A stretch of 64,000 nucleotides of DNA from Bacteroidota bacterium. GTDB taxonomy: Bacteria; Bacteroidota; Ignavibacteria; UBA10030; UBA8401. Below, in pieces: positions 921 to 14,622 of the stretch (position 1 is its first letter; every line of letters begins with the position of its first letter). A program made the position numbers and the translations under genes. The stretch covers positions 62,001 through 126,000 of the forward strand of contig DATJPT010000004.1 of NCBI GenBank assembly GCA_035506275.1, read 5' to 3'. Under the pieces are notes generated by a model. The model saw only the letters and a program-made list of their open reading frames with translations, did no database searches and was not told the origin of the DNA.

Positions 921-3083
921 TCAGAGCATGCCGCTTCGCTTGCGGACGAACCACTCTGTTCCGAATAGCGCAACAATAACCGAAAGAAGGGATGGAAGGT
1001 TCCACACTTCGATCTCGCTCGTGGTTACCGCCTCTTCCGGTGTCATCGATGGACGGGACGCGAGATCACGGACAAGCCGGTCGAACTCCTTTCCGTCGGC
1101 ATATTCCCCCCCGGAGACCGCGGCGATCTGCTGCAGGAGGGGCTTGTTCATTTTTGTATCGGAAAATTCGATGGACTGTTCCCCCACAGAAAACCGTCCT
1201 TCCAAGGTACCGAGGTCTGCGCCTCCGGCTTTTGCCGTCGCGGTAAACGAGTAATCGCTTTCCGGCAGGGATTCAATTTCGCCATCGTAGCGGCCGTTGT
1301 CAAGGGGGCGAAGAATTGTTTCAAACCGCTGCCGCGACGGCATGGCGGTGATCTCAACATGAATATCCGCATCGTTGACCGGATCGTAATTGGCATTATA
1401 GGCCTGCCCGAGGAACTCGATCGGTTCCCCCTGGGAAAAAATTTCCTTCAGCGGTTCAACCTTCAGCTGTTTGTTGTCCTCGCGGGTAACGAGCCAACGG
1501 ACAATACGAGAAAACCACGGGTCAAAAAAATCTTCCGTTTCCGGGCTTGCGCCGGCAAGCAGCCTCCACCTCCATACGCCGTACCCGAGGATGGCGAACG
1601 ACTTGAAGCGGGGGACGCTCCGCGAAGCGAGCAGCGGCGCATTGAGGGGAACGCCCTGGAACGTGACGGTTGCAAGGACAACAGCCTCCGGTTTCGCTTT
1701 GAATGTTCCGATCGAGGAATAAATGGGGGGGAGCTTACTCCAGTCGAAAGAAGAATTTTCTGACAATTGCGCAAGAATGTTGTAGCGTTGTTCCGCAGGG
1801 ATGTTCGGGAACACCGTTCGTTCGTCGATGGTACCGGATGAAATTGTGAAAGGGAGAACCGGCTCGAGTTCTTTCAGTTTGCGAATATCTATGGTCCGGC
1901 TTCCGATGAACAACAGCGGTGTTCCGCGAGCGGCTACTGCGTTCGCGATCGCTTGGATCGCACCGGGGGAGGTACGTTCTGTCGGGAAACCAATGAGCAC
2001 AATGCACTCCGCCGCTGGGAACCCTGCAGCCTGGGCGAGCGGCTGTCCGGCAAATTGCCCCGTCGGCTGCTGGATGGCAACCGTCGTTTCAATATTCGGG
2101 TCCGAATGCAAACTTTGCACGACGGCAGCAACGTCGGCACTCGGCGCTCCTGCTACGACGGCCACGCGCGTTTTATTTTTAAGGATCTTGACGAACACGG
2201 ACCGTGCGTTGTTATTCTTCGTCACCTCACCATCCAGAGCTTGGACGCTGACGGTATATTTTTTTGTCCCGGCTTCGGCGGGACTGAACGTGAAATGGAC
2301 CGGATATTCGGCGATCCTCTCCGCGCCCGATGGCGGAAGCGTGACGATCTGCCGGGCGATCTGTTTTCCGTCTTCCAGAAGAGAAACGGGGAGCTGCATG
2401 TTCTCAAAACCGGAAACTTTAATGACTGCATCGACCGGCACGGAGGACTGAACATACGCGATGGAATTGGTCAGCACTTTTTGCACCGAGACATCCTTCT
2501 GTTCCGTTGAATCGCCGATGCCGACGCAGAAAATCGGCGCGCCTGTCCTTCCTGCCTCGTCCAACGGGTTTTCTCCCGCATTATAATCCCCGTCGCTCAA
2601 AAGAAGAACTGCCTTCAGGCCGGGGAGCGGTTTCTCTTTCAGTGCGTGAAAGGCCGATGCGATATCGGTACTTGAGCCGTTCAGTCGAAATGAATCTTGC
2701 TCTATGCGCCGCAGCGAAGGCGAAAAGCTAAACAACTCAACCTGTGCGGATGAAGAGAGTCGTTTCAATGCATCCCCCGAGATGATGGATCGAAGCTGTT
2801 GTTCCCGGTCGCCCGCGCCGTCGGTAAGGGACATGCTCAAGGAATTATCGACAAGGACGGCGACAACGGGCCGAAGCAATGAACGGCGCGCGATATTCAA
2901 CACCGGCTGACAGAGTGCAAGGATCAGGAGCGTAAGCGCGAGGGAGCGGAGGGAGATCAGAAGATATCGCCTGCCCGATGAGACGGGAGGAACTGTGCGC
3001 CGGTAGGTGAGGAATGAAACCGCAGCTGCGGCAGCCGCGGCAGCAAGAAAAACATACCATGGGATTTGAAATGAGAGGAACAA
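921..3083 (-). CDS. VWA-domain membrane protein with glutamine-amidotransferase-like fold
   Basis: A 720-residue protein. Two N-terminal membrane segments (about 8-26 and 40-60) precede a von Willebrand factor A domain. The metal-ion-dependent adhesion site is intact: DNSLS at residues 79-83, T139 in SSTDI and D164 in LLSDGD. The middle (about residues 305-400) looks like a Rossmann-type amidotransferase-like domain. A final hydrophobic segment (about 694-712) ends in RKRSGML. The start appears to be a TTG seven bases past the stop of the upstream subtilase, so translation is probably coupled. BatA-like VWA membrane proteins of Bacteroidota commonly sit with MoxR ATPases, as here two genes upstream. 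The usual DUF58 partner is absent from the window. It probably acts in a MoxR-dependent envelope assembly or stress complex; that is inference from context. Confidence 0.82.
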   Translation of the reverse strand: MFLSFQIPWYVFLAAAAAAAAVSFLTYRRTVPPVSSGRRYLLISLRSLALTLLILALCQPVLNIARRSLLRPVVAVLVDNSLSMSLTDGAGDREQQLRSIISGDALKRLSSSAQVELFSFSPSLRRIEQDSFRLNGSSTDIASAFHALKEKPLPGLKAVLLLSDGDYNAGENPLDEAGRTGAPIFCVGIGDSTEQKDVSVQKVLTNSIAYVQSSVPVDAVIKVSGFENMQLPVSLLEDGKQIARQIVTLPPSGAERIAEYPVHFTFSPAEAGTKKYTVSVQALDGEVTKNNNARSVFVKILKNKTRVAVVAGAPSADVAAVVQSLHSDPNIETTVAIQQPTGQFAGQPLAQAAGFPAAECIVLIGFPTERTSPGAIQAIANAVAARGTPLLFIGSRTIDIRKLKELEPVLPFTISSGTIDERTVFPNIPAEQRYNILAQLSENSSFDWSKLPPIYSSIGTFKAKPEAVVLATVTFQGVPLNAPLLASRSVPRFKSFAILGYGVWRWRLLAGASPETEDFFDPWFSRIVRWLVTREDNKQLKVEPLKEIFSQGEPIEFLGQAYNANYDPVNDADIHVEITAMPSRQRFETILRPLDNGRYDGEIESLPESDYSFTATAKAGGADLGTLEGRFSVGEQSIEFSDTKMNKPLLQQIAAVSGGEYADGKEFDRLVRDLASRPSMTPEEAVTTSEIEVWNLPSLLSVIVALFGTEWFVRKRSGML

Positions 3084-3089
3084 GAGCTT

Positions 3090-5153
3090 CTATTTCAACA
3101 AAACAAGTTTTTTCACGGAACTAAACTCCCCCGACTTTAATCGGTAGAAGTAGACTCCGCTTGCGAGGGGAGAACCGTCGAATCTTACGGGGGACTTTAA
3201 GCCTGCCGTTTGATACTCATTGACCAATGTTGCGACCTCGCGTCCGAGCACGTCATAGATCTTCAGCGTCGTAAAGTTGGATTTCTCCAGGTAATATTGA
3301 ATGGCCGTTGAGCTGTTGAACGGGTTCGGATAATTCTGATAGAGGGCAAAGGTCGACGGCAGGGACGTCGTGCCGACGCTTGTATCCTCGCCGTTAAACG
3401 TGAACAGATGTTGCGGAGCGTGGTACGGCATTGTATAGGGTGTGTTGGTGGTGTCGACGGCGAAAATGTAGAACTGAATCTTCACCCCCGCAAAACGCGG
3501 GATCGTACCAGAATAGCTTCCCGAATTTGTGGATGCATCGATCGTATCCGTCAACGTCATCGGGGCCATGGAAAACGACGCCCCCCCGTCGGCCGAATAG
3601 AATAATTTGACAGAATCCTTTTTGATGAGGGCGTTCGATGCTGCGCATGCAACGACATTGATCGTGCCGTCCTGCTGGACCGAAACGGCAGGGTCGGTGC
3701 TGAGCACAAGGCCGGTGGAAAGGAGCGCTTTGTAGACATCGATGACCCCCCACCCGAGCGAGTCGTTCGGCGACCCAGCTCTGCTCGCAGTGTTGCGCAG
3801 AGCGTCGCGGACCTGGATCGGCGTCAATCCGGGATGGGCAGAAAGGATGAGCGCCGAGGAGCCTGCGACGAGCGGCGTTGAAAGCGAAGTCCCCTGAAAG
3901 CCGGTAGAATACTTTGAGAATGCCCGCATGGTGCAATAGTCGCCGACGCCGTCCGCCGACACGTCGGGCTTTGTCCTTCCGTCGGCGGTCGGACCGACGG
4001 AGCTGAAGCTTGCGTACACACCGTTGATGTTCACCGCCCCGACCGATATGATACTGTCGGCATCTGCCGGCGATATCATGATGTGCCAGCTTGTTTCCGC
4101 TTCGTTTCCCATCGCGTTGCACACCACAACACCGAGCCGTGCCGCCATCACCGCCGCTTTCGTCGTCGTAGCCGTACGTCCGTTCATATCCGCGGTCGTG
4201 TAGCTGTGCTGCGGCACGCCGTTCGCGTCCAAGGAATCAAACTGGCTGTAGCCGAGCGAACTGCTGACGACATCGGCTCCATTCTGTTCTTCCCATTCGA
4301 TCCCGGCGACCCAGTTGTCTTCTTCGATGTTCGTCTCCGACGGCACATATTCCGTTTTCGCGAGAATAAAACTCGATTCAAACGCAGGACTCACCAATTG
4401 CCCCTCTTTGTACCCCCCGACAAGGGAAAGCGTCAACGTTCCATGCTCGTCCTGGTCGGACTCATCGATGGGTGTATTTCCGGGCTGGTTGGCGGTGACC
4501 GAATCATGTTGAACGAAGTCGTACTCTTTGATCACATCCATATTCATTTCGGATTCCGGGACTCGCCAATCAAAACCCGAATCCAGCATCCCGATCAGGA
4601 TCCCCCGGCCGGTGATCCTGAGATTGTGAACGGCGACCACGTCGATCTGGGCGACCTGGGCCAGCGACGGACCGTAGTCGTGAAGGTCCTGAGTCGTCGG
4701 TGTAGAAAGCTTTTTGATGGGAGCGGAAATGGGTGGAAGTTCTTTTCGCACAAATGTGCGGACAAGTTCGATCCGGTCGACGAAGGGGAGCGCTTCAACC
4801 TGGTTAGCCTGGGCTGGCGTCAGCATTGCCGAGACGGCATTGAACCACCGCGACGTGTTGATCGCCGCGATGCCGTTTGCATTCAGCCGGTCGATATACG
4901 ATTGGGTGACGGGGAGGTCCGACGCTGAGGCAAGCTGCGCTGGGGGGAGGACTTTTGCGCGCCGTTGAAGCGCGCGCTCCGTGAGGCCTGTGGCGAGAGA
5001 AAGTTCGTGTACCGTTCCGGCAGCCGACAAAGCGCGGAGCGCTGACTCGTCCTTGTCGCGGAAGTAGATCCAGTATTTTTGCGGCTTGTCTTGCGGATGC
5101 GTCGCAGAGACTACAAACAGCAGAAGGGCAAAAATTGTTTTTCTGGCATCCAT
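3090..5153 (-). CDS. Secreted S8 subtilisin-like serine peptidase with T9SS type A sorting domain
   Basis: The frame is open back to a GTG at 5222, but the ATG at 5153 is preferred because it begins a clean signal peptide (MDARKTIFALLLFVVSATHP). Numbered from the GTG, the catalytic triad is D214 (GMLDSGFDWR), H260 (DEHGTLTLSLVGG) and S446 (FQGTSLSTPLVAG), with N373 as the oxyanion residue (AMGNEAETS). A propeptide-like region precedes the domain. The C-terminal 75 residues hold the type A sorting domain: YQNYPNPFNSSTAIQYYL, then KIYDVLGREVATLVNE, ending in SVKKLVLLK. The protein is therefore expected to cross the inner membrane by Sec and the outer membrane by the type IX system. It lies between MoxR and the VWA gene; the VWA gene starts seven bases after it ends, suggesting one transcript. 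Confidence 0.93.
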   Translation of the reverse strand: MDARKTIFALLLFVVSATHPQDKPQKYWIYFRDKDESALRALSAAGTVHELSLATGLTERALQRRAKVLPPAQLASASDLPVTQSYIDRLNANGIAAINTSRWFNAVSAMLTPAQANQVEALPFVDRIELVRTFVRKELPPISAPIKKLSTPTTQDLHDYGPSLAQVAQIDVVAVHNLRITGRGILIGMLDSGFDWRVPESEMNMDVIKEYDFVQHDSVTANQPGNTPIDESDQDEHGTLTLSLVGGYKEGQLVSPAFESSFILAKTEYVPSETNIEEDNWVAGIEWEEQNGADVVSSSLGYSQFDSLDANGVPQHSYTTADMNGRTATTTKAAVMAARLGVVVCNAMGNEAETSWHIMISPADADSIISVGAVNINGVYASFSSVGPTADGRTKPDVSADGVGDYCTMRAFSKYSTGFQGTSLSTPLVAGSSALILSAHPGLTPIQVRDALRNTASRAGSPNDSLGWGVIDVYKALLSTGLVLSTDPAVSVQQDGTINVVACAASNALIKKDSVKLFYSADGGASFSMAPMTLTDTIDASTNSGSYSGTIPRFAGVKIQFYIFAVDTTNTPYTMPYHAPQHLFTFNGEDTSVGTTSLPSTFALYQNYPNPFNSSTAIQYYLEKSNFTTLKIYDVLGREVATLVNEYQTAGLKSPVRFDGSPLASGVYFYRLKSGEFSSVKKLVLLK

Positions 5154-5261
5154 CAACGTCGTGAGCCACGAAGTCTTGAAGGGACGAAACAATAGATGAC
5201 ATTGAGGACCATAGCTTTTCACCTTGATTGCTTAGTGACTTTGCATCCGTCTGGCGATACC

Positions 5262-6284
5262 CTAGACGCTTGCGAGCAGTTTCTCGACAATGGAAACAGC
5301 CGAAACACCGTCCGCCTCGGCATTGAAATTCGGAATGATGCGGTGTCTCAACACGGGGACCGCCATCGAACGGACATCGTCAACGTCCGGGGTGTAGCGT
5401 CCGGCAAGGATCGCGCGGGTTTTTGCCCCGAGGATCAGGTACTGCGATGCCCGCGGACCGGCTCCCCATGTGAGCCAGTCTTTGATGAATTTTGGAGCCT
5501 GTTCATCCTTCGGGCGAGTCCGCGCGGCAAGCTGGACAGCGTACTGGATGACCGCGTCGGCGACCGGAACGCGGCGGATCAATTCCTGAAATACAACGAT
5601 CTGTTCCGCGGCGAGCACGCGGCGGAGCGACGGAGCGTACGGGCTCGTCGTCGATTTCACGATGTCGATCTCTTCCTTGAACGAAGGATAGTCCAGCCAC
5701 AGGTTGAACATGAAACGGTCGAGCTGCGCCTCGGGGAGAGGGTACGTTCCCTCCTGCTCGATCGGGTTTTGCGTGGCTAGGACGAAAAAGGGCTCGTCGA
5801 GCGTGTACGTCTGCCCGGCGGCGGTCACTTTATGCTCCTGCATCGCTTCAAGAAGCGCAGCCTGCGTTTTCGGCGGGGTCCGGTTGATCTCGTCGGCAAG
5901 GATGATATTGCCGAAGATCGGCCCGCGGACGAATTTGAACGCCTTTTGACCGGTAGAGACGTTTTCCTCGATGATCTCGGTGCCGCTGATGTCGCTCGGC
6001 ATCAGGTCTGGAGTGAATTGGATGCGGCTGAATTTGAGGTCGAGGACGTCGGCCAGCGTTTTGATGAGGAGCGTTTTCGCAAGACCCGGCACGCCGATCA
6101 GCAAACAATGGCCGCGCGCGAGGAGCGAGACGATCAGCTGTTCAACAACGGCATCCTGCCCGATGATGACCTTGGCGATCTCTTTTTTAATTGCGGCGTA
6201 TGCAGCAGCCAGCTCACGGGCGGCTTCGACGTCGTCGGCCTTCTTTACAGGACTCATGGTGACCACGGTATTCGGCACTTTCAC
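5262..6284 (-). CDS. MoxR family AAA+ ATPase
   Basis: A 340-residue AAA+ protein. Walker A is GVPGLAKT at residues 64-71, Walker B is IILADE ending at residue 132, followed by INRTPPKTQAALLEAMQE (sensor 1 region follows as VLATQNPIEQEGTYPLPEAQ). These are diagnostic of the MoxR branch, which act as chaperone-like partners of VWA proteins. Met10 could be an alternative start. The first downstream genes on the strand are the T9SS subtilase and a VWA membrane protein. DUF58, the usual third member of the set, is not in the window. A candidate promoter lies just upstream at 6312-6340. Confidence 0.94.
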   Translation of the reverse strand: MKVPNTVVTMSPVKKADDVEAARELAAAYAAIKKEIAKVIIGQDAVVEQLIVSLLARGHCLLIGVPGLAKTLLIKTLADVLDLKFSRIQFTPDLMPSDISGTEIIEENVSTGQKAFKFVRGPIFGNIILADEINRTPPKTQAALLEAMQEHKVTAAGQTYTLDEPFFVLATQNPIEQEGTYPLPEAQLDRFMFNLWLDYPSFKEEIDIVKSTTSPYAPSLRRVLAAEQIVVFQELIRRVPVADAVIQYAVQLAARTRPKDEQAPKFIKDWLTWGAGPRASQYLILGAKTRAILAGRYTPDVDDVRSMAVPVLRHRIIPNFNAEADGVSAVSIVEKLLASV

Positions 6285-6453: not shown

Positions 6454-7731
6454 CTAGCGCTTCGCATCGGCGGCTGTCACATCGAACCGGACAGTTTTTT
6501 CCCAGAACCGCTTATCTTTTTTGACATATTCGGTGTATGCAGCTTTCACGACGATGTAGATCCACAGTTGACAGTACGTGAAATACATCAGCACAAGAAG
6601 GGCGATCTTTCCGAAGCCGTCCTCGTTGTCGTAAGAGATGGCGAGCATGATCTCTATGAGGAAGAGAAAAAACGCCATGATCCAAACAACAGTGTATGGT
6701 CCGGGAAGCGAGATGGCGACAAGACTGAGCCCGCTGAGGAGAAAGAGAAGGTCGGAGATGATGATGGCGGCGAAGAAGATGTAATAGAGTGCGAGCGTGT
6801 ACAAAAGGTCGAACGCAAGCCATTTGTTTTTGAAGTTCGGGATGTGCTTCAGAAATTTCGAAACGACATAATTGTTCCCGCGGACCCACCGCATCCGCTG
6901 CTTGATCCATACTTTCCACTCCTGCGGTTCCTGCTCATACGTGATCGCGTACGGAATGAACTTGATCTTATAGCCCGCCTCATAGATTCGGATGCTCAGT
7001 TCGGAATCTTCGGTCAGCGCCTCCTCGTCCCAGCCGTTCAGCTGCCGGATGAGCGATGTCCACATGACGAAATTCGTACCCGGAAGCGTCGCGATGCCGT
7101 GCATCTGCCAGCGGCCGGCCTGCAGCATCGATTGAAAGCTCAGCGTCTCGACGTTGATGAACTGCGTCAGGATGTTGTGGTTCTTGTTGACGGTGCGGAA
7201 TTTTCCGATGACCCCGCCGAGGTCCTTGTGCAGCAAGAGCTGCGCGACAAGGTAGCGAAGCGCGTGCGGGTCGGGGGTATTGTCGGCATCGTAGATGGCA
7301 ATGATGTCCGCTGCGGCTCGCTTGACGCCGAGGTTGAGCGCCCGCGATTTGCCTTTGCCCCCTTCGCCTTGGGGAATGTCGAACAGTTCCACACGCTTGT
7401 CGCGTTTGGCGTATCCCTGAATGATCTCCTTCGTCGAGTCGGTCGATCCGTCGTTGATCACAAGGATGCGCAATTTGTCTTTCGGGTACTCCAGCGCAAG
7501 CATCGAAGCGATCGTTGCCCCGATCACTTTTTCCTCGTTATGGGCCGGGATGAGGATCGCGCACGTCGGATAATCGAGCGTCAGACCGTCGACATCATTC
7601 CTCTCTTTCATCGACCGGACGTAATTTACGAACCCGTAGACCGTCAGCACGAACTGGTACGCGATCATGAACCAGATCAGGATAACGGCGATGACGAACA
7701 GAAAACTCAGATCGACTTCGAGCACGGTCAT
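6454..7731 (-). CDS. Membrane family 2 glycosyltransferase, probable processive polysaccharide synthase
   Basis: A 425-residue protein with an N-terminal membrane helix (about 8-36), a cytosolic GT-A domain and three or four C-terminal helices (about 305-410). Catalytic motifs are all present: NDGSTD with D94, DADN at 148-151, TED at 240-242 and QRMRW at 278-282. The QxxRW motif marks processive synthases such as those for poly-N-acetylglucosamine, cellulose or hyaluronan. There is no PilZ domain. It starts three bases after the stop of the large deacetylase/hydrolase gene, downstream of a UDP-GlcNAc 2-epimerase, so it probably polymerises an amino-sugar exopolysaccharide that the large protein then modifies. 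Substrate and polymer are inferred, not seen. Confidence 0.88.
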   Translation of the reverse strand: MTVLEVDLSFLFVIAVILIWFMIAYQFVLTVYGFVNYVRSMKERNDVDGLTLDYPTCAILIPAHNEEKVIGATIASMLALEYPKDKLRILVINDGSTDSTKEIIQGYAKRDKRVELFDIPQGEGGKGKSRALNLGVKRAAADIIAIYDADNTPDPHALRYLVAQLLLHKDLGGVIGKFRTVNKNHNILTQFINVETLSFQSMLQAGRWQMHGIATLPGTNFVMWTSLIRQLNGWDEEALTEDSELSIRIYEAGYKIKFIPYAITYEQEPQEWKVWIKQRMRWVRGNNYVVSKFLKHIPNFKNKWLAFDLLYTLALYYIFFAAIIISDLLFLLSGLSLVAISLPGPYTVVWIMAFFLFLIEIMLAISYDNEDGFGKIALLVLMYFTYCQLWIYIVVKAAYTEYVKKDKRFWEKTVRFDVTAADAKR

Positions 7732-7734
7732 GGG

Positions 7735-10700
7735 TCAGGATACCTTTCGCGGGGCATAACCTCGTTTAACGACTTTAAGAGCGACGTACATCAGAAAAAG
7801 CGCGCTCACGGCAAGGACGCCGAAGATCGCAATAGCGGTCGTCGACCAGAGGCTTGTAACGTTGACGCCGAAGGAGAATTGATCCCCCGCAATGAGGTCG
7901 ACCTCATGATGCCCTGCCGGAAGAAAGATGCTGAAGCAGTCGTTCCCCTTCATCACCGTAAACTGGTATTGCTCGTGATCCACCTTCACGGAGGAGGGGG
8001 CGACGTTGAACGAAGCGACCGACCGCGTCGACGATTCGTACGTGAAATCGATCGTCCGCAATCCGTGCGTTACCGACAGCAAATTGCCCGCGATCGACAT
8101 GATCTTTGCCTGCAGTTCGTGCGTCGAGAAGGTGTTCACCGCCTCGCGGTTGAGCGTCACCACATGCCTGCCCGCCGGGATGAGGAACAAATTATCCCTG
8201 AACGGCGACATCGGCACGTTATCGATGTTGATCTCGGAGACGGCCTTCGGAAGCTTGCAGACGAAGGAGTACGGCGAGTTCAACTGAACTCCGTTGTCGG
8301 TGTAGCGGTACCTCACATCCGCCGCAAGAGCGTTCGAAAGAAACGCCATGTCCTGCGGGTTAATGCTCGATTCCGAATAGATCGTGAAGCGCGGCGCGCC
8401 GATCGCAGCAGCCTTCACGAGATAAAAACTCTCCGTTCCGGTCTGGATCAGCGTCGGGAACGGAGTGATCGCCTCCTTCTTCCTGAAGTTGACGATGTTG
8501 AGGTCGAGCGCAAGTTTTGCGCTGTCTCCGAGGATCCGTTCATAACGTTTTCCGATATCGATGTACCGCCCCGGATCGGTCGACCATGACGTCTCCGGGT
8601 CCTCCACTTGCAGGACGAAATGGTACTTTTTTTGCAGCGCGATGATCTGGTTCATGTCCACGCCGAGGTACTCGCGAAGCTCCGGAGAACCATACGCGTC
8701 CATCGCCGTCACCATGATCTGGAACCCCGGCTTCTCGTTCGCGATCCGGGTGAACGAAGAGAGGAATGCCTCATACGCGAGCGTGAGCTGGCCGACCCTG
8801 TAGTCGATGACGGCGTTCGTCACCGCCGGGTTCGTTTTCCAGTAATACGGCGATTGCGGGCTGAAGATCGAATCAAGGTCGAATCCGTATTTTCTTTTCA
8901 CTTCCCGCTGCGCCGAAGGATGCATCGGAGCAAAAATTCCCGGATTCTCAAACCCTTTTCCCGCTTCAAAATAGACCTCGGCGAGATTCACGCCATCCCA
9001 ATCGTAGCCGTTCAGGATCTTGGCATACTCGTCTGTCATCACCGCAAGGCAGCTGTCGTCTTCCAGTGCGACGGCGTATCGCCACATGGGAGGGATGTCC
9101 TCTCCTTTATAATTTTTCTCGCGCCACCAGGGATGCTCATCCCAGAATTTTTTGCTCACCTGGGGCGGTTCCAGCCACGCGTAGACCAGGATGCCGTTGG
9201 CGTGCGCGAGGGAGATGAGCCGTTTATAGTCGTAGGTGTACTTGGGGAATTGATTCCAGCCCGCGACGTGCACGATACGGATGCCCTGGTTCACCCATTG
9301 CTTGACGAGGGATTCGATGCTGTACGTCTTTCGGTAACCGGGGTCGAAGTACATCTCCAAGTTCTCGCGGCGGACGATGGGCCGGAGATGGAAATATTTC
9401 CGGATGTATTCAAGAGCGAACGGGTACTGGCTGTAACCGTGCTGCGAATAGGAATCGAACGACGAATTAAAATAGATGACCTTCCCCTTCCCGAATTTCT
9501 TCCCGATCACCATCGGCGATTCCGTGACGTCGTCGACGCAGAACACCTCGTCGACCCCCTCGGTCTCAAATTTGCTGACCAGCTCGGCATAACGCCAAGC
9601 GATCCGCTCCTCGGGGAAATAATTGTCGTGGATCCTGCCGACGCGGATCCGCGTTTGGGTGAACGTAATGCCGAGCTCTTCGGCAAGGTCGTTCTTCGTG
9701 TCGGTAATGATGTTGCCGCCGTTTTCGACAAAATCATTGATGATGTCGTAGTCCGTCTGCTTCAGCGAATCAATGAAGGCATACGGCGCGATGAGAAGAT
9801 TGTACCGCGACAGGTTCAGCGGCTGGCCGATAAAGAACGTGTCGACCTGCACGTTGACGTTGCGCAGCAGCGCCGCGAGCGACGATTGGTCGTGGAACGC
9901 CGCTCCTTTCACGTGATGGTTCCACAAAATTGCCGCCCGGATGTCTCCCCATTCCTCTTCCTTCGAGAAAACATTGTCGTACAGTTTCTGGACGCTGTAT
10001 TCCGTTTTCTGGATGAAAGAAAGAGGGCGTTCGCGGAATTCTGTCGGCTCGGCCTTGTACAGTTCCCCCGGCTCCAGCTCGATCGATTTTGTGATCGGTC
10101 CTTTTAACCGTTTTTCGGAGATGCTTTTGCTCTTGATCTCCCCCGTGTGGTCGTAGTACGATTCGAATAAATATTGGTCTTCAAGGCGGATGGTATAATT
10201 CTGGCTTCCCGTAAGAATTATTCTGTCCTTGGTCTTCACCCAGTTCTTTTGTTCGCGCAGATCGATGTACGTGTAGCCGAGTTTTTCGATTCCGTCCACC
10301 AGTTCTTTCAGCAGGTCGAGGTCCAGGAATGGATGGAAAAAGACCGACGCGAAACCGTCGCGCACATAAAGGTTCGTCTTGGCGTTCTTGATGATGGTCT
10401 GGATGTATGCTTCGCTTTCGGCCTTGTTCGGGTTGAGCGGAACATAGCCGAGGTTCTCCGGATAGATTTTCTGCCCGAAAAGATCTTTGTTGATGATGTA
10501 CGGGAAGTACTGACTGTAATCGGCGTCCTCGATGGCCAGGCGCTGCTCCATCGCCGAACTGAAATATTTCGAGATCGTATTATAGAGAGTGAAGGATGCC
10601 GTGTAATGGGGCGTCTCCCAGATGAGCGGCGACAATCCGTTCTTCATGAACTCTTGCAGCCCCATCTCGATCTTCTTCGCATCGCCTTCCGCCGTCTCGT

Positions 10701-11688
10701 CCTTGATCGGCTTGTTCGTATTCCCGTCCCAGAATTCGAAATCGACCGCGGTCGTCCCTTTATACTGATGCGTGATACCGTGCATCACGATCGTGCCGCC
10801 GTTCTTCACCATGTACTTGATGGCATCGACAAAGTCGGGCTTGTCCGAGAGACTGACACGGATTCCTTCCTCAGGGTCGACATAGAACGGGATCACCCCG
10901 ACGAGAAACGGGATCCCGCGGGCGGACAAGATATCGGCAATGTCGCGCAGCCGGTCGGGATTTTGCAGCGGATCGACGTCCTCGATCCGGATGAGCGCCG
11001 AATGCGACTCCTCATGCTGCTCGTGAAGGATGTCGTGGAGCATATCGGCGAAAAGAAGGTACCGGTCGTTTTCCGTCGCCGAGGCGAAGGGAGAATCGGC
11101 GAAATAAAGGAGGTTCTTTGTCCGGATGATGTACGGGATCTCCCTCCGTTTTTTTGTCGAGTATGCCGTCGCAACGACCGTCACAAGCCGCCGGTTTGCA
11201 ATCTCGATGATGTTCGCATTCGGCTCCCCCTTGGTGAAAACCTTGCTGTTCGATTTCACCATGTCGAAATCGTCGAGCGAATCGATGAGGGAGACGCTGA
11301 AGCCGTACTTTTTCCGCAGGTTGTATTTCTGCGAAAACTCGATCATCCCGGTATTCATCCAGATCACCGGCTTGCTCGTTGCCAGCACGTCGTCGAGAAA
11401 TCTTGCCGGGACAACGTTGCGTGCGTTGAAGCCGATGTAAAAGATGAAATCAAAGCTGTTGATCTCTCCCGGATTGTACTTGTTCACTCCTTTGATCGTC
11501 ACGGCGGTATTGAAGTGGCCGAGCAGCTCCGCGAGCTGGCGCCCGTCGCCGATCGCGTAGTTCTTCAGGTCGGTGTTCCCTTCGACGACGATCAGGATTT
11601 TCTTCTGGGGATATTCCTGGCCAAGCGCAGGGTACTGGAGCACGACGGCCGCCGCTGCGAGCCAGAACAGTTGGAAAATATTTTTCAT
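7735..11688 (-). CDS. Membrane-anchored DUF2334-type polysaccharide deacetylase fused to a glycoside-hydrolase-like domain
   Basis: About 1317 residues. ATG at 11688 is preferred over the GTG at 11691. Order of parts: signal peptide (about 1-25, ending ALGQ); a Rossmann-like region (about 30-150); a deacetylase-like domain (about 230-480) with metal-ligand candidates D238 and D240 (RIEDVDP), H304 and H308 (MHGITHQ) and H453 (FFHPFLD); an amidotransferase-like Rossmann domain (about 585-770); a TIM-barrel glycoside-hydrolase-like domain (about 785-1070) with YAWLEPPQ and WDGVNLAEVYFE, where D899, E905 and E909 are acidic candidates; a beta-rich region (about 1100-1275); and one C-terminal membrane helix (about 1281-1307) with a short basic tail. 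The combination resembles in concept the deacetylase-plus-hydrolase proteins PgaB and PelA. It abuts the epimerase and glycosyltransferase genes with gaps of 0-3 bases. The enzyme classes are moderately sure; the substrate is unknown. Confidence 0.75.
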   Translation of the reverse strand: MKNIFQLFWLAAAAVVLQYPALGQEYPQKKILIVVEGNTDLKNYAIGDGRQLAELLGHFNTAVTIKGVNKYNPGEINSFDFIFYIGFNARNVVPARFLDDVLATSKPVIWMNTGMIEFSQKYNLRKKYGFSVSLIDSLDDFDMVKSNSKVFTKGEPNANIIEIANRRLVTVVATAYSTKKRREIPYIIRTKNLLYFADSPFASATENDRYLLFADMLHDILHEQHEESHSALIRIEDVDPLQNPDRLRDIADILSARGIPFLVGVIPFYVDPEEGIRVSLSDKPDFVDAIKYMVKNGGTIVMHGITHQYKGTTAVDFEFWDGNTNKPIKDETAEGDAKKIEMGLQEFMKNGLSPLIWETPHYTASFTLYNTISKYFSSAMEQRLAIEDADYSQYFPYIINKDLFGQKIYPENLGYVPLNPNKAESEAYIQTIIKNAKTNLYVRDGFASVFFHPFLDLDLLKELVDGIEKLGYTYIDLREQKNWVKTKDRIILTGSQNYTIRLEDQYLFESYYDHTGEIKSKSISEKRLKGPITKSIELEPGELYKAEPTEFRERPLSFIQKTEYSVQKLYDNVFSKEEEWGDIRAAILWNHHVKGAAFHDQSSLAALLRNVNVQVDTFFIGQPLNLSRYNLLIAPYAFIDSLKQTDYDIINDFVENGGNIITDTKNDLAEELGITFTQTRIRVGRIHDNYFPEERIAWRYAELVSKFETEGVDEVFCVDDVTESPMVIGKKFGKGKVIYFNSSFDSYSQHGYSQYPFALEYIRKYFHLRPIVRRENLEMYFDPGYRKTYSIESLVKQWVNQGIRIVHVAGWNQFPKYTYDYKRLISLAHANGILVYAWLEPPQVSKKFWDEHPWWREKNYKGEDIPPMWRYAVALEDDSCLAVMTDEYAKILNGYDWDGVNLAEVYFEAGKGFENPGIFAPMHPSAQREVKRKYGFDLDSIFSPQSPYYWKTNPAVTNAVIDYRVGQLTLAYEAFLSSFTRIANEKPGFQIMVTAMDAYGSPELREYLGVDMNQIIALQKKYHFVLQVEDPETSWSTDPGRYIDIGKRYERILGDSAKLALDLNIVNFRKKEAITPFPTLIQTGTESFYLVKAAAIGAPRFTIYSESSINPQDMAFLSNALAADVRYRYTDNGVQLNSPYSFVCKLPKAVSEINIDNVPMSPFRDNLFLIPAGRHVVTLNREAVNTFSTHELQAKIMSIAGNLLSVTHGLRTIDFTYESSTRSVASFNVAPSSVKVDHEQYQFTVMKGNDCFSIFLPAGHHEVDLIAGDQFSFGVNVTSLWSTTAIAIFGVLAVSALFLMYVALKVVKRGYAPRKVS

Positions 11689-11691
11689 CAC

Positions 11692-12852
11692 CTACCGTGG
11701 TCTGAATTCGTGAATGGCGCCGCCGGGCATGCCGAAATATTTTTTCATGATCAGCACCGTTCGTTCGGCAGCGCGGCCGTCTCCGTACGGGTTCGTCGCG
11801 GTCGCCATCTTGTTGTACGCCCCCTTGTTCTCAATGAGCCGTTCTGCGGACGCGATGATCTTCTTTTCATCCAGCCCGACAAGCTTGACGGTGCCATATC
11901 GGACCGCTTCGGGACGCTCCGTCACCTCCCGGAGAACAAGGATCGGCTTGCCGAGGGACGGACCTTCTTCCTGCACGCCCCCCGAATCTGTAATGATCAA
12001 ATACGACCGGGCCATGAGGTTGACGAAATCAAGATAGTCGAGCGGTTCGATGAGAAAAACGTTGGCGAGCGAACCGAGCGTGCTGTAAACAACTTCGCGC
12101 ACAACGGGATTGAGATGGACGGGGAAAATAAAATTCATGTCGCGGTATTGTTCAGCGAGGACTCCGACGGCGCTGCATGCGTCGCGCATCGGCTCCCCCC
12201 AGTTTTCCCTGCGGTGCATCGTCAGCAGGACGATGCGTTTGTTCTCCGACGCGAGCTGGTTGAGCGTGTGGATGCCGAACGCGTAATGTTTCTTCACGGA
12301 AATGTTCAGCGCGTCGATCACCGAGTTGCCGGTGACGAAAATTCGCTTGCGGTCGACGTGTTCGTGCAGCAACGCCTTTTTTGCCGTCGAGGTCGGCGCA
12401 AAATGAAGGTCCGCGATGCAGCTCGTCAGCCGGCGGTTGATCTCCTCGGGGAAGGGATTGTTTTTGTCGTTCGTCCGGAGGCCCGCTTCAACATGGCCGA
12501 CGGGAATGCGGCGGTAGAACGCCCCCAGGCTTCCGACAAACGTCGATGTCGTGTCCCCCTGAACGAGCACCATGTCGGGCATTTCCTTTTCGAGAACGGT
12601 ATCGAGGGCGGCGATCGTGTTCTGCGTCAGCGTCGCGAGCGTTTGCTTCGGCTGCATCAGGTTGAGGTCGTAGTCCGGAACGATCTTGAAGACATCGAGC
12701 ACCTGGTCCAGCATTTGCCGGTGCTGCGCCGTTGCGATCGCGATGGTCTCGAAGTATTTCTTTTCCTTCTTAAGCTCGGTGATAATAGGGGCGAGCTTGA
12801 TGGTATCGGGGCGCGTGCCGAAGATAACCGCTATTTTTTTCAACAACCTCAC
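11692..12852 (-). CDS. wecB: UDP-N-acetylglucosamine 2-epimerase (non-hydrolysing)
   Basis: A 386-residue protein that would interconvert UDP-GlcNAc and UDP-ManNAc in the cytosol. Family motifs are present in order: FGTRPDTIKLAP at the N-terminus, VQGDTTST, GHVEAGLRT, FPEEINR, TMHRRENWGEP and TDSGGVQEEGPSLGKP. These carry the expected catalytic Asp, two Glu and His. The longest frame starts with GTG at 12852, but AAGGTGAGG lies over that codon; a TTG at 12843 sits six bases downstream of AAGGTG and may be the true start. First gene of the exopolysaccharide cassette, directly abutting the next gene. The gene symbol rests on family resemblance; the product may feed a capsule or exopolysaccharide rather than enterobacterial common antigen. 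Confidence 0.93.
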   Translation of the reverse strand: MRLLKKIAVIFGTRPDTIKLAPIITELKKEKKYFETIAIATAQHRQMLDQVLDVFKIVPDYDLNLMQPKQTLATLTQNTIAALDTVLEKEMPDMVLVQGDTTSTFVGSLGAFYRRIPVGHVEAGLRTNDKNNPFPEEINRRLTSCIADLHFAPTSTAKKALLHEHVDRKRIFVTGNSVIDALNISVKKHYAFGIHTLNQLASENKRIVLLTMHRRENWGEPMRDACSAVGVLAEQYRDMNFIFPVHLNPVVREVVYSTLGSLANVFLIEPLDYLDFVNLMARSYLIITDSGGVQEEGPSLGKPILVLREVTERPEAVRYGTVKLVGLDEKKIIASAERLIENKGAYNKMATATNPYGDGRAAERTVLIMKKYFGMPGGAIHEFRPR

Positions 12853-13086: not shown

Positions 13087-14622
13087 ATGAATCCAGCGCT
13101 CGAAAAAATCGCCAAGCATCTCCGTAATGCAGAGGACTTTGCACGTTCGAAGCGCTATTCCGAAGCGTTGCTGGAAGTCGATTATATTTTTCAGATCGAC
13201 CCCAAAAATTATCAGGGGCGCACCCTGCAGGAGAGGATCCGCTCTCTTCAGAAGAAGGAAGAGGAAGCCGCCCGCAATCCCGTCGTCGCGCCGCTGTCGA
13301 AAGAAGGAGTCTTCCGGCATCTCCGGATCGCCGAAGAGCATTTTCTTGCCAACCGGTTCGATGAAGCGCTGATCGAGACCGAACGCGTGCTTCAAGCCGA
13401 CCCGGATAATTATCAGGGCCGCTCGCTGCTGGACCGGATTCACACCATGCAGAAAAGAGCCGAGACCGTTTCTCAGGCCCGGACATTTACAAAAAATCTT
13501 ACGCTCGAAAAGAAGATCGAGCTGATCTCCCAATATTTACGAGAGGCGGACAGATTAATTCAACTTCAGCAGTATGACCGCGCGCTTGAACAGGTGGCAA
13601 AGGTCTTCGGTCTTGATCCGACCAATCATTTTGCTCAGGCGTATTCTCAGAGCATCGAGATGCTGATGAAAAAAGGAGCGACGCCGATTCCCGCTCCCGT
13701 TACTCCTGCTGTAAAAAAACCGGCAGCGGTGCCGGTGCCCGTGCCGGCCCCGGCAGCCCCCGTGGCCGCTCCCGCGCCGCCTCCAGCGCCCGTTCCTCCT
13801 CCGCGCCCGCATGTTCCCCCGGTGGCAGCCCCATCGGCACCGGCGCATCCGGCCCCCGCGCATGTTCCAGCACAACCGCCGAAACCGGCACCGCAGCCGG
13901 CCAAGCCCGTTCCGGCTGAGGCGTCGCGTAAGCTGGAAGGCAGGCTGAAAATGTACCGCGAGATACTCGACGAGATGTGGTTTGACGGCATTCTCACAGA
14001 AAAGGAGGCCGCCGAGCTGGTCAAGATCCGCGACATGTTCAACATCTCCGACGAAGAACATGCCCGCCTGGAAAAAGAGATCAAAACTGAAGCCTACGTG
14101 CAGGCGCTCCGCATCGTCCTCCACGACGGTGTTGTGAGCGAGAACGAAGAGCGCGTGCTGGAATTGATGCGGCGGCGCTACGGTATTTCGATGGAAGAGC
14201 ATAAGGATGCCGAGGCGAAAATTCTCGAAGCGCGGCATTCTCCCCCTTCGCTCGGAACGATTCTTATCGTTGACGACGAAAAGACGATCCTCCTTACCTA
14301 TTCAGCGATTCTCCGCAGGCATGGGTACACCGTGCTGATCGCCGAATCGGTCGAGGCGGCGCTGGTGATCCTGGAAAAGCAAACGCCCGACCTGATTCTC
14401 TCGGATGTGATGTTTCCGTCTCCGAAGGAGGGGGGGTTTGAGTTCTATAACCAGGTGCGCAATAACCGGCGCTTTGACGGCGTTCCGTTCCTGCTGATGT
14501 CCGGCGTCAGCGACGAGTACGTCGTTCGCGCAGGAATGAGGCTTGGCGTTGACGGATATCTTTTGAAGCCGTTCGATAACGAAATGCTGCTGGCGACGCT
14601 CGAAGGGAAATTAAAGCGTTAA
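13087..14622 (+). CDS. TPR-like repeat protein with Pro/Ala linker and C-terminal response-regulator receiver domain
   Basis: 511 residues, no signal peptide, so cytosolic. Three related helical repeats lie at about 5-50, 74-120 and 145-190; each pairs an A-x-x-x-x-Y/F-D/E-A-L pattern with a following DP(K/D)NYQGR-type segment. A Pro/Ala-rich linker spans about 198-278. An alpha-helical segment (about 283-382) has two DGxxxExE-like helix pairs, FDGILTEKEAAEL and HDGVVSENEERVL, resembling TerB or EF-hand-type acidic modules. The receiver domain (about 389-511) keeps D396/D397, the phospho-acceptor D440 (LILSDVMFP), S472 and K494. There is no DNA-binding or enzymatic output domain, so it probably signals through protein contacts. 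It is divergent from the exopolysaccharide cassette across a 234-base gap, which is compatible with, but does not prove, a regulatory role. Confidence 0.85.
   Translation: MNPALEKIAKHLRNAEDFARSKRYSEALLEVDYIFQIDPKNYQGRTLQERIRSLQKKEEEAARNPVVAPLSKEGVFRHLRIAEEHFLANRFDEALIETERVLQADPDNYQGRSLLDRIHTMQKRAETVSQARTFTKNLTLEKKIELISQYLREADRLIQLQQYDRALEQVAKVFGLDPTNHFAQAYSQSIEMLMKKGATPIPAPVTPAVKKPAAVPVPVPAPAAPVAAPAPPPAPVPPPRPHVPPVAAPSAPAHPAPAHVPAQPPKPAPQPAKPVPAEASRKLEGRLKMYREILDEMWFDGILTEKEAAELVKIRDMFNISDEEHARLEKEIKTEAYVQALRIVLHDGVVSENEERVLELMRRRYGISMEEHKDAEAKILEARHSPPSLGTILIVDDEKTILLTYSAILRRHGYTVLIAESVEAALVILEKQTPDLILSDVMFPSPKEGGFEFYNQVRNNRRFDGVPFLLMSGVSDEYVVRAGMRLGVDGYLLKPFDNEMLLATLEGKLKR

Follow-up and report, generated by a model that had tools for sequence, protein, structure and literature searches.

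Listeria monocytogenes possesses a pssA-E operon (PMC4125290) and the Listeria Pss polymer is built of beta-1,4-ManNAc in which every other residue bears alpha-galactose (PMC11439720). In the Listeria locus the genes encode, in order, a membrane protein, a DUF2334 protein, a GT2 glycosyltransferase, BcsB and a diguanylate-cyclase-like protein, which agrees with the published pssA-E arrangement. A ManNAc polymer has also been postulated in E. coli, where WecB is required for NGR (NfrA, NfrB, WecB), a system that combines a GT2 with WecB and an outer-membrane pore (PMC8669472). Two further systems offer points of comparison: Pga (PgaABCD), in which a processive GT2 is accompanied by one protein with deacetylase and hydrolase, and Pel, in which PelA carries both kinds of domain. 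The catalytic residue of PgaB, Asp474 (Bordetella numbering), sits in an HD motif after strand 4 (PMC5933820).

The locus described here lies in a window (the whole stretch of DNA analysed, 64,000 nucleotides) from a 3.7 Mb genome, the named relatives of which are Ignavibacteria and related Bacteroidota MAGs. Three minus-strand open reading frames of 386, 1318 and 425 aa follow one another in the order epimerase, large protein, GT2. The epimerase and large-protein genes abut with 0 bases between them (...ACGGTAG/GTGATG...), and 3 bases separate the large-protein gene from that of the GT2 (...TCCTGA/CCC/ATG...). These data bear out the earlier note, which had described a back-to-back cassette with gaps of 0-3 bases and no exporter gene in the window; no recognisable exporter gene was found adjoining the cassette. 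The features are as follows.

6454..7731, minus strand: GT2 polysaccharide synthase of the PssC type, 425 aa (PF13641, motifs, tree)
7735..11691, minus strand: predicted deacetylase/hydrolase protein, 1318 aa, periplasmic, with one C-terminal TM helix (DUF2334, AF2, 351 homologous loci)
11620..11691, minus strand: signal peptide, about residues 1-24 of the large protein (hydropathy; the hydrophobic N-terminus is also present in homologues)
11014..11604, minus strand: first alpha/beta domain, flavodoxin/class I amidotransferase-like, about residues 30-226 (AF2; fold matches to PelA 9cgy and amidotransferases)
10291..10998, minus strand: DUF2334 CE4-like deacetylase domain, residues 232-467 (PF10096, E 5e-52; CE4 fold, Z up to 19)
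10036..10224, minus strand: beta-rich linker domain, about residues 490-552 (AF2 secondary structure)
9382..9939, minus strand: second alpha/beta domain, GH42 trimerisation-like, about residues 585-770 (PF08532, E 1e-6; Foldseek matches to GH42 enzymes)
8254..9369, minus strand: (beta/alpha)8 barrel like the GH153 domain of PgaB, about residues 775-1146 (4p7n, Z 25.4)
7867..8253, minus strand: C-terminal beta domains, about residues 1147-1275 (AF2 model)
7777..7833, minus strand: C-terminal TM helix, about residues 1287-1305, then a basic tail (hydropathy 2.58)
11692..12852, minus strand: UDP-N-acetylglucosamine 2-epimerase, WecB type, non-hydrolysing, 386 aa (PF02350, TIGR00236)

Downstream on the same strand (window 921-6284) are genes for a MoxR ATPase, for a subtilase that carries a type IX secretion tail and for a protein of 720 aa, which probably form a separate operon. 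The start of the cassette adjoins a divergent gene (13087-14622, plus strand), the product of which is a TPR protein that has a response-regulator domain at its C-terminus. A second processive-type GT2 of 495 aa is encoded in the same genome about 13 kb away, outside the window (G000:C4:55286-56347, L039); it is 30% identical to the cassette GT2 and falls outside the PssC-like group described below.

The cassette GT2 matches PF13641 (E 2e-33) and carries the processive-synthase motif set including QxxRW (D94, D148-A-D150, TED240-242 and QRMRW278-282), the key residues of which show little or no variation across 12 family members; its topology comprises one N-terminal and about three C-terminal TM segments. 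The best NCBIfam match is PgaC_IcaA (TIGR03937, E 5e-44), at 150.9 bits against an equivalog cut-off of 422.3, a score that places the protein outside that family. A search of a plasmid collection gave an unexpected result: the best named match was L. monocytogenes, at its pss operon. The GT2 is 42.8% identical to Listeria PssC over 416 residues, that is, over its full length, and 41% identical to an E. faecalis homologue; equivalent values are 27% over 294 residues for E. coli PgaC and 23% over 247 residues for NfrB. A tree was built that included PssC-like proteins of Enterococcus, Acinetobacter, Priestia and Lactiplantibacillus together with PgaC, BcsA, NodC, NfrB, OpgH, ArnC and GtrB. The cassette GT2 falls within the PssC-like group (support 88/97) and not with PgaC, although several long outgroup branches make the deep order of this tree unsure. 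It is separated from the non-processive lipid glycosyltransferases ArnC and GtrB with support of 100/100, and the earlier description of a processive QxxRW enzyme thus stands.

Likeness to Pss extends beyond the synthase. Directly upstream of pssC lies pssB, the gene for a DUF2334-related protein that has, like the large protein, a signal peptide and a C-terminal helix, and UDP-ManNAc is the expected donor in both cases. The link between PssB and DUF2334 is a distant one, given a score of 23.3 bits (E 5e-5) under a cut-off of 26. PssB is moreover degenerate, having lost the deacetylase metal ligands that the large protein keeps, so that the chemistry of the two need not match. The large protein further differs in adding a second alpha/beta domain and a PgaB-like barrel to a PssB-like protein, and the cassette differs in its linked epimerase gene. 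A BcsB homologue (PssD; PF03170) was found in none of 14 pair-positive genomes (those with the large protein and its GT2), whereas the control genomes of E. coli and B. subtilis gave matches; the flanking genes examined included no recognisable homologue of PssA or PssE, and those scanned no GGDEF gene, GGDEF proteins being encoded elsewhere in the genome. With a BcsB-like subunit sought and not found, we regard the cassette as one that would work like Pss and do not file it as a member of Pss.

Related gene combinations occur in other bacteria. In E. faecalis (L163:4421-7263) a PssC homologue 69% identical to that of Listeria comes after a PssB-like protein, and a gene with weak likeness to GH8 lies upstream of both. 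In an Acinetobacter cluster a PssC-like GT2 gene lies about 2.7 kb from wecB and is accompanied by BcsB; a second record is similar, and the Pss-like cluster of the two (L164, L165), which also includes a DUF4434-like protein, may make a ManNAc polymer. On a Streptomyces plasmid wecB, a more distant GT2 gene and a DUF2334 gene stand side by side. The E. coli NGR system shares with the cassette the combination of GT2 and WecB, but NfrB carries a c-di-GMP-binding MshEN-like domain besides its low identity, and a deacetylase/hydrolase protein is not reported for NGR.

The large protein had been described from its letters as a secreted, membrane-anchored protein of 1317 residues with deacetylase and glycoside-hydrolase-like domains. 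The anchor and the deacetylase assignment hold at a length of 1318 aa; the hydrolase assignment comes from structure, sequence profiles having assigned no hydrolase domain. The match to DUF2334 reaches 177 bits, against a gathering score of 26, and among Pfam profiles the ordinary polysaccharide deacetylase family did not match this domain. AlphaFold models of the two halves, built from alignments of 51 sequences, have a mean pLDDT of 91.3 (residues 25-600) and 90.8 (residues 578-1275). By sequence, no solved structure matched the whole protein or its N-terminal half, and the C-terminal half gave a weak match to a GH42 beta-galactosidase (E 2e-4). By structure, Foldseek ranks PelA of Pseudomonas thermotolerans (9cgy, E 3e-10) first for the N-terminal half, the DUF2334 portion of which can be superposed on CE4 deacetylases. 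Nearest in fold to the barrel is the hydrolase domain of PgaB, with 320 residues superposed at 4.0 A and 13% identity, a result close to a tie with GH42 enzymes (Z 24.3 against 25.4). The comparison with PgaB and PelA proposed in the earlier note found both resemblances.

Residues at the predicted active sites are conserved. E237, D238, H304, H308, E359, H362 and H453 of the DUF2334 domain are invariant in 68 homologues, D238, H304 and H308 being candidates for the metal site. Equally invariant in the 68 are the barrel residues D899, E905, D998, D1031, D1063 and E1107, which sit where strands 4, 5, 7 and 8 end and, in the case of strand 6, close to its end. In the sequence WDGVNLAE, which may be compared with FDGILFHD in PgaB, E905 comes after predicted strand 4, a correspondence by motif only. 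Since sequence similarity to PgaB is undetectable (profile comparison with E. coli PgaB, probability <1%), we infer, rather than observe, the catalytic equivalence of the two barrels. A stand-alone 730-aa paralogue of the C-terminal half (alpha/beta domain and barrel), which has neither DUF2334 nor membrane helix, is found beside the cassette in three Bacteroidales loci (L123:12270-14465, minus strand; L085; L088) and unlinked to it in G039, G046, G049 and G050; it would fit the part of a secreted hydrolase dedicated to that polymer which the cassette makes.

Set against Pga, the cassette thus shares the processive GT2, the single protein with deacetylase and hydrolase, and a barrel fold like GH153; it differs in that its deacetylase is DUF2334, in the C-terminal membrane anchor and in the epimerase, and no PgaA- or PgaD-like gene was recognised beside it. 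Assignment to the PNAG systems by sequence was accordingly rejected on the PgaC score, the lack of PgaB similarity and the tree. Against Pel, the order alpha/beta, deacetylase, beta-rich is common to PelA and the large protein; however, the PelA hydrolase precedes these domains, whereas here a different barrel follows them and the PelA order is not present. The cassette synthase is a GT2, and none of PelF, PelG, PelB or other pel genes was recognised among the flanking genes scanned. The cassette is nearer to Pss than to either Pga or Pel. The arrangement in which two predicted trimming enzymes are joined in one giant membrane-tethered protein departs from that of other bacteria.

A scan of species-representative genomes returned 351 loci related to the large protein, of which the best 80 were fetched. 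These are the nearest relatives, and the counts that follow say nothing of more distant ones. A GT2 gene follows the large-protein gene on the same strand in all 70 testable loci, within about 130 bases in 66 of them; among the relatives' fetched loci the GT2 stands directly behind the large protein wherever the contig permits the test. The epimerase precedes the large protein in 34 of 76 loci and is missing there in 42. The loci come from Ignavibacteria, Kryptoniota, Bacteroidales, Acidobacteria and one Spirochaetes MAG. The large protein is present in 31 genomes among 60 relatives (the window's own included), and the GT2 in 14 of 395 sampled genomes of the phylum, all of one class. Finding homologues in the same order in many other genomes rules out chance as the cause of the arrangement. 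The three families had been expected to co-occur in related genomes: this holds for the large protein and the GT2 and fails for the epimerase, which is not obligatory, so that the core is a two-gene pair (hereafter, the pair) with a frequent third member. In G058:C239 and L138 the large protein is in several pieces or two ORFs, which suggests decaying or misassembled copies.

The epimerase matches PF02350 (E 5e-118) and, at 498 bits against a cut-off of 210, belongs to the WecB family TIGR00236; it is expected to supply UDP-ManNAc. The gene may in truth begin at a TTG at 12843, which stands behind AAGGTGAGG. Cassette-linked epimerases of three phyla form one group (support 90/97), and unlinked WecB copies, including a second copy in this genome, fall apart from it. 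The Spirochaetes sequence is closest to those of Bacteroidales in both the epimerase and the GT2 tree, as would be expected if the three genes travel together. WecB occurs somewhere in all 31 pair-positive genomes searched and in most pair-negative ones as well. The presence of an epimerase was discarded as a marker of the pair, WecB being found in 56 of 60 relatives, and because it is nearly ubiquitous and so often missing beside the pair, its adjacency is suggestive only.

Many relatives encode a further protein next to the pair. This beta-barrel-like family (about 380-500 aa) is without clear Pfam assignment; one member shows weak outer-membrane barrel similarity, to SlipAM (E 4e-8). Of 62 testable loci, 23 have a barrel gene near the pair, and in G001, of the same genus (L040:14465-15844, plus strand), this gene stands directly between the GT2 gene and the MoxR gene that follows the cassette here. 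Co-occurrence at the level of genomes goes beyond adjacency: 17 of the 31 pair-positive genomes hold a full-length strong match (E <1e-70), and none of the 24 pair-negative ones does (Fisher p 4e-6, relatedness ignored). On this distribution the family may be considered a candidate exporter for the pair. Searches of the present genome with one sequence and with a profile found no barrel gene hidden elsewhere in it. Next after the barrel gene there is often one for a YCF48/BNR-repeat protein that bears a type IX secretion tail (L063:13684-15786, L065, L070, L072, L075).

The reading that we prefer, and hold to be fairly probable as a whole, is of a synthase-dependent exopolysaccharide system operating in the manner of Listeria Pss, with ManNAc as substrate and with deacetylation and cutting of the chain. 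That the core is a synthase with a deacetylase/hydrolase partner we hold with considerable confidence; that ManNAc is the main monomer is somewhat likelier than its opposite. The epimerase would convert UDP-GlcNAc to UDP-ManNAc, and the PssC-like GT2 would polymerise an N-acetylated hexosamine, most likely beta-linked ManNAc, while pushing the chain through the inner membrane. The secreted large protein, which its C-terminal helix would keep tethered where the chain leaves the synthase, would take up the chain; its DUF2334 domain would strip some of the acetyl groups and its PgaB-like barrel would cut the chain. Export across the outer membrane would require a separate barrel protein, for which the gene beside the pair in many relatives, not present in this genome, is the candidate. 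The earlier proposal of a minimal amino-sugar (GlcNAc or ManNAc) system fares well as to an amino-sugar synthase with processing by one protein; with PssC as closest synthase ManNAc is favoured, and 'minimal' may describe only this genome, many relatives having the barrel protein.

The GT2 could instead be a divergent PgaC and the large protein a divergent PgaB, the product being a PNAG-like (poly-GlcNAc) polymer and the epimerase merely co-transcribed from another pathway. The best NCBIfam match, the nearest fold of the barrel and the inconstant linkage of the epimerase would all fit, but the PgaC score falls far below its cut-off, the tree sets the GT2 with PssC, the deacetylase is DUF2334 and not of the ordinary family, and no pgaA- or pgaD-like gene was recognised alongside. 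The grouping with PssC, which makes a ManNAc polymer, the DUF2334-related pssB beside pssC and the linked epimerase together favour a ManNAc polymer, and we judge a PNAG-like system unlikely. We give rather less credence to a polymer of other or alternating sugars, in which the epimerase supplies a part only and the pair is a general exopolysaccharide synthase and processor. More than half of the loci have no linked epimerase, and Listeria Pss itself bears galactose; a deacetylase nevertheless implies acetylated amino sugars, and every pair-positive genome searched has WecB, as most pair-negative ones also do.

In many bacteria the products of WecB go into wall and lipid-linked glycans, and this use, together with the anchoring of the large protein in the inner membrane, would suit genes that make or remodel such a glycan rather than a free exopolysaccharide. 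Against this stand the full processive motif set of the GT2, its clean separation from ArnC and GtrB and the resemblance of the barrel to an exopolysaccharide hydrolase, which leave this explanation highly improbable.

A broader claim can be put forward tentatively, and we think it rather less than an even prospect: that the pair represents a class of its own among machines for ManNAc exopolysaccharide, widespread in uncultured phyla of Gram-negative bacteria, in which a membrane-tethered protein, part PelA-like deacetylase and part PgaB-like hydrolase, takes the exit role of BcsB/PssD, and export proceeds through a barrel family to which no function has been assigned. If the Pss-like reading is true, DUF2334, which is almost without literature (a single paper among 5.4 million open ones), would gain a testable role as an exopolysaccharide deacetylase, and the barrel protein family would become a concrete exporter candidate. 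The natural fusion would suggest that the chain is deacetylated and cut in one place, where it leaves the synthase, and ManNAc polymers, described in Listeria and postulated as a phage receptor in E. coli, would be extended to several further phyla.
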